In this document: positions 27,383 to 48,423 of the stretch, one piece after another | Numbering within the stretch: the first letter of the stretch is position 1 | How the letters are laid out: each line of letters opens with the position of its first letter | Source of the DNA: Synechococcus sp. WH 8020 | Lineage (GTDB): Bacteria; Cyanobacteriota; Cyanobacteriia; PCC-6307; Cyanobiaceae | Reading direction: 5' to 3' | NCBI RefSeq assembly: GCF_001040845.1 | Contig: NZ_CP011941.1 | Coordinates: 515,744-579,743 of the forward strand | DNA: 64,000 nt | Notes under the pieces: generated by a model | Told to the model about the DNA's origin: nothing | The model's database searches: none | The model's input: the letters and a program-made list of their open reading frames with translations, nothing else | Position numbers and translations under genes: made by a program

Positions 27383-27797
27383 TTTGGGTTCCTCAGAAAT
27401 CCAGGTCCCCGTTCCGTGGCCTGGCGAGTCTGCGCCTCATGTCAATGAGGTGAACGTTGTTTGTAGCTGTTGCTACTAGATCTTCATAGCAATAATGTCT
27501 CCCTTTTAGTTGTTCGAGGGGATACAAAGCGGCATGTGATTTTGAATTCTGTAGCTTTTCTATACAGAACACTCTGCCTGCTTTCTCGTTATCCACGTGT
27601 ACCTCACACGTGATGAGCAGTCAGCAAAGAAACGCTCATTTCAGCAGTCGTAGAGAGTGAAGAAAAGACTTTTCTGCTTCTCAAGGGTTTGGAGGTCCTT
27701 CTTATGGCCAAAATCCCTGCGTTTGCTTGCTTTCTGTCGTTGCGGGGTTGCATCTCCTTAAGAGAGTGGTTTCATATTGAAATCGATTACTTGACTG

Positions 27798-29601: not shown

Positions 29602-30551
29602 GATTCCTGGCAACACCTGGAGTGAGCTGCTCTGGAGCTAAGGATAACTTCTCTGAGAAAAGTGACGTGATTATCAAGTGCTCCATCGCCGTTCCGCAAG
29701 GACTCTTTCTTGTTGGTGCTTTTGATGCTCAAGCATCTTCACCCATTCAGCCAATCTGAGCTAGGAATGATGCTAGTGATCTTATCTGCGTTGACTCAGA
29801 AGCTGTATTGATCCCGCATACAATTTTGCTTGATGAAGACTGGTCAGTACAGCTTGCGAGTGAAGCAGGCGATCTCTAAAGAAGCTTCTACGACTTTACG
29901 GATCAAGACCATGCCAATCATGATCTGATCGCTCAGCAATTTCATTCCTGATACTATCAATTCGTGGTTTTTGGCTTTGATTCAGGCAAGCTCTGATTCT
30001 TCCGTACAGTTCAATTTAAATTCGACTTGCCCGCTGACATGTATATTGTGAAGCAAGTGTATGGGTGAACCTTGTAGAAGCTATTCGGGGCCATTCTAGA
30101 CAATCTTTGTGCCATGAATCAACTGCCAATAAAGCTACGATCATTCACCGCATCAGTCCAAAGAAAACTGCGCAAGATTCACGCTTTATAGGCTTCTCTT
30201 TGGACGTATTTCCTAGTTTGTACTTCTTGACCAAGCCATCCTAACGAGTGAATTGTGTCTTAAGAATCAGAACTCCCAAGTCTCTGTTGATTGGTTGGTT
30301 GGCTGATCCCATTCCCTTCCTAACTATGTAGGGTTCTATGTCTGTAAAGGTTTTCTTCCCGCTTCCCACGACCCACTCGAAGATGGCTGAGGTGCCTTCT
30401 TCGATTGACCTGCTTTCATTTCATCTCTGGGGCTATGCCAGCGCTGGTCGGCCTGACAAGTGTGCAGATTCTATGTTTTGGTTAAGGACTGCCACTGATG
30501 CAGCAATGAGCACCTGCCTTGCGTCAAAGAGACTTGATTGAATGGACAGCG
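29602..30551. other. Long gene-poor interval
   Basis: About 950 bases. ORFs of 60-70 codons on either strand (for example plus 30338-30541) show no ribosome-binding site and no recognisable pattern. No tRNA or repeats were seen. It may be decayed sequence. Confidence 0.35.
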
Positions 30552-33713: not shown

Positions 33714-34259
33714 CTAATTACTCGCAGCATGGCAAACGGCATTTAATGTATGAACATCTGCTGCGCTTCTCGGCTGATTGCCGTTGATCAGACCTTGCTG
33801 ACAATTGGCTTGACCATTCACTCTGATTCCATTGACATAATAGGTGAAATCGATGCTTATAGGCTGTGGCGATGATTGTTCAAGCTCGTAATCAAGATTC
33901 CTATTGGTTTCTGGAACGACGATCGTAGGAGAATTTTGCTCACGAGAGTTGGCAATCGCAGAGGTGATCATTGCTCCTGTTGCTAAACCTGCGATACCCC
34001 ATTCAGCTCTTCTATTTGGATACCAGCCCCAATTATCATGATGCCATCTGCCACCGTGATGCCAACCACCTCCGCCGTGATGCCCGCCTCCACCGTGATG
34101 CCCACCGCCGCCGTGATGCCCGCCTCCGCCGTGATGCCCGCCTCCGCCGTGATGCCCGCCTCCGCCGTGATGCCCGCCTCCGCCGTGATGGTGTCCAGCA
34201 CTGATTGGCATGACTCCTGCCAACGTTAATGCTGATGCAATCAAGAACGTTCGCAGCAT
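33714..34259 (-). CDS. Exported His/Gly-repeat protein
   Basis: A 181-aa protein with a signal peptide (MLRTFLIASALTLAGVMPISA) followed by seven near-identical GGGGHH units, then WHHGGRWHHDNWGWYPN and a hydrophobic Ala/Gly stretch (WGIAGLATGAMITSAIANS). The C-terminal ~90 residues form a small domain with two cysteines (ANCQQG, AVCHAAS). The repeat is encoded by a perfect 18-base unit over ~110 bases. A role as periplasmic metal buffer is plausible. The C-terminal domain is conserved-looking rather than low complexity. Confidence 0.75.
   Translation of the reverse strand: MLRTFLIASALTLAGVMPISAGHHHGGGGHHGGGGHHGGGGHHGGGGHHGGGGHHGGGGHHGGGGWHHGGRWHHDNWGWYPNRRAEWGIAGLATGAMITSAIANSREQNSPTIVVPETNRNLDYELEQSSPQPISIDFTYYVNGIRVNGQANCQQGLINGNQPRSAADVHTLNAVCHAASN
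34078..34190. repeat. 18-bp tandem repeat in the His/Gly gene
   Basis: Repeated unit CATCACGGCGGAGGCGGG (coding strand), about six to seven copies, each encoding GGGGHH in frame. The array can gain or lose units without a frameshift, and so change metal-binding capacity. Confidence 0.85.
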
Positions 34260-35183: not shown

Positions 35184-35459
35184 TGGGGTGAGTCAGGCAA
35201 GCCCCAACAGGTTGTCCTGCAGGGGCAGTCCTGGTCCTGGACGGGATCCAAGAAACCTAAAGGTTAGGTCTCAAGTTCTTTCTACCAAACAATGCAAAGT
35301 CCCTCAACCTTTCGCGGGCTTCTAAATCGCGAAAGATTGATGGTTGTGGGACTGTTGACCCCGTCCAAAGAGTCACTATTTCATTTTGCGTCCGCCTGAG
35401 TCTCTGTTAGTGCGAAAAGCTCTCAATAGTTGTGACGATTGAGCGTGACGCATGAAAAA
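35184..35459 (+). repeat. Structured dispersed repeat, copy 1
   Basis: A ~276-base element with a second copy at 48067-48343, same orientation. Conserved hairpins: ACCTAA/TTAGGT (35255-35269); GTCCCTCAACC (35299-35309) with GGTTGTGGGAC (35342-35352), enclosing TTTCGCG (35310-35316) with CGCGAAA (35328-35334); and CTCAAT/ATTGAG (35422-35443). Identity is highest over 35300-35375. The homology ends at the ATG of a short ORF in both copies, so this may be a 5' regulatory leader or ncRNA gene. Not a known family to me. Confidence 0.7.
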
Positions 35460-35550
35460 GGTGAGCCCTCTTGGCTTCATTGTCTTGACCTCTTGCACCG
35501 TTGGTTCCTTCGTCTGCCTTGATCAATCAGGCAATACAGAAGGCGACTAA
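35452..35550 (+). CDS. Possible 32-aa protein after the structured leader
   Basis: ORF MKKVSPLGFIVLTSCTVGSF... begins exactly where the structured repeat ends. It looks like a signal-anchor peptide (one hydrophobic segment with a Lys-rich start) ending DQSGNTEGD. If the upstream repeat is a leader, this is its regulated gene or a fragment of one. Confidence 0.35.
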   Translation: MKKVSPLGFIVLTSCTVGSFVCLDQSGNTEGD

Positions 35551-35648: not shown

Positions 35649-35677
35649 TTGCTTATTGGGTTTTTTCTGGCATTATT
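35649..35677 (+). promoter_or_regulatory. Putative promoter of the Yfr2-like sRNA
   Basis: TTGCTT (35649-35654) and ATTATT (35672-35677) with a 17-base spacer; start expected near 35684. Confidence 0.4.
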
Positions 35678-35680
35678 TCG

Positions 35681-35766
35681 ATGTGAGGAGGGCTTCTTCA
35701 CGGAGTGGAAACTAGGAAACACGTCTAACGAGAAGCCGAGAGACCCCGCCTTTGGCGGGGTTTTCT
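35681..35766 (+). ncRNA. yfr2: Yfr2-type sRNA candidate
   Basis: Short unit without ORF: a 5' hairpin GTGAGGAG-GGC-TTCTTCAC with wobble pairs, then the unpaired core TGGAAACTAGGAAACAC, then a GC-rich terminator CCCCGCC-TTT-GGCGGGG plus TTTT (35744-35764). The AGGAAACA core in a hairpin context with a strong terminator is the hallmark, as I remember it, of the Yfr2-5 sRNA family of marine picocyanobacteria, and the ~85-nt length agrees. Confidence 0.6.
35744..35764 (+). terminator. Terminator of the Yfr2-like sRNA
   Basis: CCCCGCC, TTT loop, GGCGGGG, then TTTTC: a short, very stable rho-independent terminator. Confidence 0.85.
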
Positions 35767-48066: not shown

Positions 48067-48343
48067 TGGGGTGTGTCAGGCAAGCCCCAACAGATATTTC
48101 TGCGGGGCAGTCCTGGTCCTGGACGGGATCTGGGAAAACCTAACGAATAGGTCTCAATATCGTTCTATCAAAAAAGACAATGTCCCTCAACCTTCCGCGG
48201 GCTTCTAAATCGCGAAAGATTGATGGTTGTGGGACTGTTGACCCCGTCCAAAGAGTCACATCAGTATTTTTATGCCTGCTTGAGGCTTGGTTAGTGCGAA
48301 AAGTTCTCAATAGGTGTGACCATTGAGCTTGTCGCATGAAAAA
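48067..48343 (+). repeat. Structured dispersed repeat, copy 2
   Basis: Second copy of the element at 35184-35459, with the same order of stems. Differences: a one-base deletion in the CTGC(A)GGGGCAG stretch, TTCCGCG against CGCGAAA (one mismatch) in the inner stem, and the first stem shortened to ACCTA/TAGGT. The CTCAAT/ATTGAG stem and GTCCCTCAACC/GGTTGTGGGAC stem are kept. Homology ends at ATGAAAAA (48336), after which the two loci diverge. Confidence 0.7.
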
Positions 48344-48423
48344 CGGCGAGTCTGACCGACCTGGCAAAGCACCGCAGGTTGGGCATCCGAGATGGGGTGA
48401 ACCATTTCGTTTCAGAGGAAGGA

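Follow-up and report, generated by a model that had tools for sequence, protein, structure and literature searches.

The Element and Its Surroundings

The window analysed here, which is the whole stretch of 64,000 nucleotides from the 2.66 Mb, one-contig genome of Synechococcus sp. WH 8020, holds two copies of a structured element on the same strand, copy A at 35184–35459 (+) and copy B at 48067–48343 (+). Each is annotated as an RNA gene, the limits of A being those common to A and B. The two copies are 85.1% identical over 282 alignment columns (E 2.8e-84 in the genome search), which confirms the repeat in the same orientation described in an earlier sequence-only reading of the window. That reading placed the best identity in the paired core, and 35299–35376 of A indeed differs from B by a single substitution. 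A third, partial copy is found in the genome at C1:1024420-1024585 (-), with 78% identity. In a multiple alignment A and B are 75% identical to each other, while A is nearest to a copy in another genome (86%) and B to two copies elsewhere (88% and 85%). Since each is closer to copies elsewhere, A and B do not represent a recent local duplication.

The homology between A and B stops directly 3′ of ATGAAAAA, as had been noticed from the sequence. This limit stands for the A/B pair but is specific to it, as several other copies extend into a terminator-like hairpin (recognized by eye). Several copies also share sequence 5′ of the left edge of A and B. On the 3′ side of B, 48360–48400 (+) matches the sequence immediately 5′ of copies at two further loci (L047 and L050), and is probably the truncated start of a second tandem unit.

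A separate sRNA gene of the Yfr2 family (Cyano-1) lies downstream of A at 35677–35741 (+). Also present in the window are a degenerate Yfr2-like sequence at 30160–30245 (-), which is 73% identical to the Yfr2 region downstream of A, a Glutamine-II riboswitch at 27400–27459 (-) scoring 56.4 bits, and a gene at 33714–34259 (-) whose protein product has a long HHGGGG repeat and matches no Pfam family.

Conserved Structure of the Predicted RNA

The layout of the element comprises a stem of 4–5 bp, a 3′-side bulge of roughly seven bases, an inner stem-loop, box 1 (CTGTYGAYCCCGTCCAARGA...) and box 2. In copy A, the core hairpin (35299–35352 (+)) consists of a GUCCC/GGGAC stem, an asymmetric bulge, inner stems, and the apical loop GGGCUUCUAAAU (35316–35327); its counterpart in B occupies 48182–48235 (+), with the loop at 48199–48210. 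Directly 3′ of the core hairpin follows box 1 (consensus CUGUYGAYCCCGUCCAARGA), which reads TGTTGACCCCGTCCAAAGAGTCAC in A (35353–35376 (+)), lies at 48236–48259 (+) in B, and is nearly invariant, with one T/C change in 15 near-copy rows. Box 2 (AGTGnnAAAnnTTC, CAATAG-like) carries a small hairpin; in copy A, box 2 (AGTGCGAAAAGCTCTCAATAG) and the small CTCAAT/ATTGAG hairpin span 35409–35443 (+). The alignment of the 15 near copies features long invariant runs, and their apical loop is nearly constant; distant copies carry other loops. The outer stem varies widely in sequence, occurring as GUCCC/GGGAC, GGGUC/GACCC, GGGCC/GGCCC, CCCC/GGGG, or CCUC/GAGG.

Folding supports the stems proposed in the sequence-only reading. 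Copy A scores z = −3.4 over 317 nt, with 0 of 100 shuffles as low, and its core hairpin alone scores z = −4.2 (−2.9 in B). The distant hairpin at L116 folds no better than shuffles (z = −0.9).

Compensatory changes maintain the core hairpin. Of the 26 pairs predicted for the near copies, 3 are changed on both sides, and the RNAalifold covariation term for these copies is small (−0.19). In a plain, unstructured alignment of distant copies, RNAalifold returned 5 pairs with none covarying, because the hairpins differ in length and sequence, and an arm-swap test was used in its place. For 17 representatives (<72% alike) drawn from 48 copies, cognate arms gave a mean of −19.6 kcal/mol vs. −13.0 kcal/mol for swapped arms, with 0 of 20,000 permutations as good; each arm pair was split at the predicted loop of its own copy, which may favor cognate arms somewhat, and the slice for G380 was slightly misplaced. 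The own partner ranked first for 6/17 members by row and 9/17 by column, with no own-partner preference by row in the weakest four (G380, G352, G034, and G235).

Stop codons interrupt each of the six frames, at least one per frame, in all 16 aligned rows, and the family has no conserved open frame. Together with the further copies and their compensatory changes, this upholds the earlier proposal of a copied non-coding RNA gene rather than a coding one. A search for more copies with covariation had been suggested as a check; it yielded both additional copies and compensatory changes in the hairpin.

Candidate Ends of the Transcript

An upstream site, TGGACGGGATC, is found in A at 35238–35248 (+) and is 91% complementary to GACCCCGTCCA in box 1 (35357–35367), 108 nt away. 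The same site in B lies at 48120–48130 (+), with its partner at 48240–48250. The GGACGGG core of this site was recognized by eye 123–146 nt 5′ of box 1 in 31 of 48 copies, and is followed about ten bases 3′ by TATAAC, TCTAAC, or CCTAAC. Its reverse complement is contained in box 1 (11 nt at 91% in both A and B). The site is missing in the other 17 of the 48 copies, most of which retain box 1, and in the distant copy G356 there is a paired change. GGACGGG may serve as a promoter site or form the 5′ strand of a closing helix, the latter being suggested by the predicted fold of A. A sigma-70 scan found no promoter. CCTTGGACGGG was considered as a general promoter motif and rejected, as it was absent from 1.6 Mb of CC9605-like sequence outside the weak copy of the element that this genome carries.

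At the 3′ end, several copies feature an A-tract and a GGCGAG...CTCGCC hairpin (by eye), which is decayed in A and B. In A, the A-tract and decayed terminator-like hairpin, again assigned by eye, span 35450–35481 (+) and contain ATGAAAAA. A terminator scan lists a 5-pair stem at 35463–35477, having found 2 sites vs. 1.2 in shuffles, and the scan of L045 did not list the GGCGAG...CTCGCC hairpin. Since an A-tract precedes the terminator-like hairpin in the better-kept copies, ATGAAAAA is most simply a terminator A-tract. The ATG at the A/B end, which the sequence-only reading took as the boundary, is therefore probably not a start codon.

A Dispersed RNA Family in Marine Synechococcus

Copies A and B are very probably two members of a dispersed family of structured non-coding RNA genes in marine Synechococcus. 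In blastn searches of 99 related genomes, clear matches (E ≤ 5e-5) were confined to the same genus, namely the host genome and five others, and the many weaker matches were short and chance-like. Of the 6 stretches of a bacterial genome collection that contain a core 20-mer, five belong to Synechococcus records and the sixth to a bin labelled Spirochaeta. On a contig assigned to Spirochaeta (MED672; L062, NZGT01000028.1), which may be misbinned, there is a copy with 91% identity to one from Synechococcus. The 20-mer is absent from viral contigs, and a viral or phage origin was rejected for lack of any match in viral searches.

Two covariance models extend the family. R1, built from the 15 near copies with 26 pairs, matches 19 of 400 Cyanobiaceae genomes at E ≤ 0.01, some of which belong to a second Synechococcus genus, whose members have a different hairpin sequence in the same layout. 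R2 was built from 12 distant copies, ten from this second, distant genus and one each from two other genera, including that of the window; it matches 19 of 34 genomes of the second genus and, at E ≤ 0.001, 28 of the 400 family genomes, which fall into 3 of 59 genera. R2 also recovers near copies, with E 6e-8 to 2e-5 for 8 of the 10 listed in three genomes, and 0.002 and 0.02 for the other two. Copies used to build either model match it by construction. Seven candidates were scored per genome in the 400-genome searches with R1 and R2 and 89 in the second-genus search, which makes an absence in the near genus less secure than one in the second genus. Genomes with matches hold 1 to 5 copies, and several loci are syntenic between genomes.

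At gathering scores, Rfam release 15 gave no match over the A/B element, the copies in 8 distant loci, or those in 14 near loci. In the open-access literature covered, including parts of PMC5069720, PMC7368042, and PMC6202907, no paper was recognized as describing this RNA; an earlier publication may list single copies.

Association with Iron-Stress Genes

What is new here is the association of the family with iron-stress loci. Of 44 element places, 21 have a gene for an IsiA-like protein (PF00421), flavodoxin, or ferritin within 6 kb, vs. 274 of 20,000 positions drawn at random from 1.6 Mb of a single genome; the choice of these genes followed inspection of the neighbors, and orthologous loci, which are not independent, were counted separately. 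The 44 places are those in the 42 fetched stretches, a subset of the copies found, and we judge them to represent about ten independent locus groups. None of the three genes is found within 6 kb of the other 23 places. In the distant genus, several copies adjoin a flavodoxin gene (PF00258) or an IsiA/Pcb-like gene (PF00421), and ferritin is found near two near copies.

Viewed from the genes, a copy lies within 5 kb of 18 of 35 IsiA-like genes across two genera and within 1 kb of 8. Three of these 18 copies (G128, G034, and G273) come from searches of 9 to 14 genomes, leaving 15/35 without them, and one (G004) is in neither covariance model. The arrangements are head-to-head, tail-to-tail, and tandem, and these differing orientations argue for a co-inherited, co-functional locus rather than for cis control.

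The RNA and IsiA also co-occur across genomes. Among 34 genomes of the distant genus, 16 have both, 3 have IsiA only, 3 have the RNA only (all three under 80% complete), and 12 have neither. The corresponding numbers for 31 near-genus genomes are 9, 7, 0, and 15, counting as lacking the RNA two genomes (G002 and G014) missing from the listed results; dropping both gives 9/6/0/14. Fisher tests, which ignore kinship, give p = 2.5e-4 for the distant genus, 5.7e-4 for the near genus, and 4e-7 when pooled. In-frame stops interrupt the IsiA matches of G317 and G356.

The three copies in the host genome are not near IsiA, the nearest being 556 kb away. The only metal-related neighbor of A is a ZIP metal-transporter gene 2.5 kb downstream, and the orthologous locus of A in another genome has ferritin in its place. 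A scan with an E. coli-type Fur consensus gave no upstream stretch a score above the highest among its 40 shuffles. No signal came from a duplex test against the 5′ regions of isiA, which covered 4 of 15 rows with energies from an unsuitable global duplex. Box 1 as an antisense to ferritin mRNA was rejected, as the 10-nt match occurs in one genome and is not kept in four other ferritin genes compared. On balance, the RNA family is probably coupled to iron stress.

Comparison with Known RNAs and Alternative Explanations

The association with isiA-like genes recalls IsrR and IsrR-1b, antisense RNAs of isiA and pcbD, respectively. In the genome that we take to be CC9605, a copy lies 0.36–0.5 kb from an IsiA-like gene. 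However, element copies are separate loci in many arrangements, and no measured copy lies inside IsiA, the nearest being 97 nt away and two tail-to-tail copies about 100 nt away (by model limits). IsrR, in contrast, is a cis-antisense RNA of isiA in the account consulted (PMC6202907). The role proposed below, that of a trans-acting RNA in the iron-stress response, resembles that of IsaR1, which at 68 nt (PMC6202907) is of a different size. A further difference from IsaR1 is that no Fur-like site of the E. coli-type consensus was found upstream of element copies.

Two other RNA families bear on the identity of the element. The Yfr2 family (Cyano-1, RF01701) likewise comprises multi-copy sRNA genes, often in the same intergenic regions, although the element has no Cyano-1 match and the adjacent Yfr2 is a separate gene. 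A Yfr2 gene lies 0.2–0.25 kb downstream of 6 of the 15 near copies, on the same strand and in about three locus groups, and A itself is 0.2 kb upstream of one, although no more than 8 Yfr2 matches, 7 of them above the cut-off, occur in the host genome. GGGCUUCU is common to the near-copy loop (35316–35327) and the 5′ arm of Yfr2 RNAs from the near genus. The element could then be a partner or regulator of Yfr2 sRNAs, kept beside their genes, its near-constant loop GGGCUUCU pairing with AGAAGCC in the Yfr2 stem or competing with the Yfr2 5′ arm, given that the near-genus Yfr2 genes inspected carry GGCUUCU/AGAAGCC arms. We consider this unlikely, as AGAAGCC is buried in the Yfr2 stem, the distant copies have other loops, and no Yfr2 was found in the downstream stretches scanned for 9 of the 15 near copies or in the 8 distant loci scanned; the adjacency may only mirror shared islands. 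It is extremely unlikely that the element belongs to Yfr103, another multi-copy structured RNA of marine Synechococcus, about 300 nt long, with which it could be compared by description only. One genome is taken as CC9605 and another as WH7803; the former holds one strong and one weak copy of the element family and the latter none at E ≤ 10. Yfr103 differs in copy number and strain distribution, with seven paralogs of 290–328 nt in CC9605 and further members in WH7803, CC9311, CC9902, and others according to PMC5069720. A non-coding repeat search over 1.6 of the 2.51 Mb of the genome taken as CC9605 instead returned a different family in seven places plus one 46-nt fragment, with matches in 12/12 genomes tested, and this family, judged by the published description, is likely Yfr103. 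Its members comprise L188:18757-19237 and six further places in G273, one about 3 kb from an element copy. The family of L163:10750-11120 (G273), a dispersed and mostly non-coding repeat with 13 match rows in one genome, was also tried as Yfr103 and did not fit.

The dispersed and patchy distribution, with few copies per genome, and the tandem remnant behind B could also point to a non-autonomous mobile repeat or island passenger that folds without an RNA function. A hairpin kept by compensatory changes and loci syntenic between genomes speak against this, and the edges of A and B lack terminal inverted or direct repeats. Furthermore, the 42 neighboring proteins searched against Pfam (50 entries, some being repeats of one family) include no transposase and one phage-type integrase, 2.8 kb from the distant copy L302. 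A mobile repeat thus appears unlikely. The 5′ leader that the sequence-only reading had also offered, acting in cis on a downstream gene, has the strong structure in its favor as well as an IsiA-like gene about 1 kb downstream on the same strand at L310. It did not hold up across the family, whose copies have neither a downstream gene nor a gene orientation in common. In the case of IsiA and flavodoxin, divergent or convergent arrangements are the more frequent, and a terminator-like hairpin (by eye) follows several copies; we regard a leader as very unlikely.

Proposed Role and Implications

The best overall reading is that of a stand-alone structured RNA coupled to iron stress and proposed to act in trans, to which we assign a probability of roughly 0.5. 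A stand-alone gene of about 300 nt would encode a structured non-coding RNA, with A and B as paralogs. This RNA would present a rigid hairpin with an apical loop that varies among subfamilies, then the nearly invariant box, predicted to be single-stranded, and a second small hairpin, and it would probably end at an intrinsic terminator. An iron-response role is proposed because the genes adjoin IsiA-like, flavodoxin, and ferritin genes and occur largely in genomes with IsiA. RyhB is a trans-acting iron-stress RNA, and the element may function in the manner of IsaR1 or RyhB, base pairing in trans through its loop or box. By analogy with these RNAs, pairing in trans is a plausible but tentative part of the model. 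The analysis shows the copies, the hairpin maintained by compensatory change, the lack of an open frame, and the association with iron genes; we infer the transcription of the element, the ends of its transcript, its induction under iron limitation, and its pairing targets.

A more elaborate version is a long shot: the stem and invariant box would form a fixed scaffold, the paralog-specific loops would act as guides, and box 1 and GGACGGG would provide self-control of transcription by the RNA or a shared protein. If true, this would be a new kind of iron-stress RNA, with each dispersed copy adding its own targets.

Iron limits growth over large parts of the ocean. To our knowledge, no dedicated iron-stress RNA with known targets has been established in marine Synechococcus. 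The element adds a covariation-supported family with no match in Rfam 15, and, as a multi-copy family found in company with IsiA, flavodoxin, and ferritin genes, some of whose host strains are in culture, it is a directly testable candidate for such an RNA.
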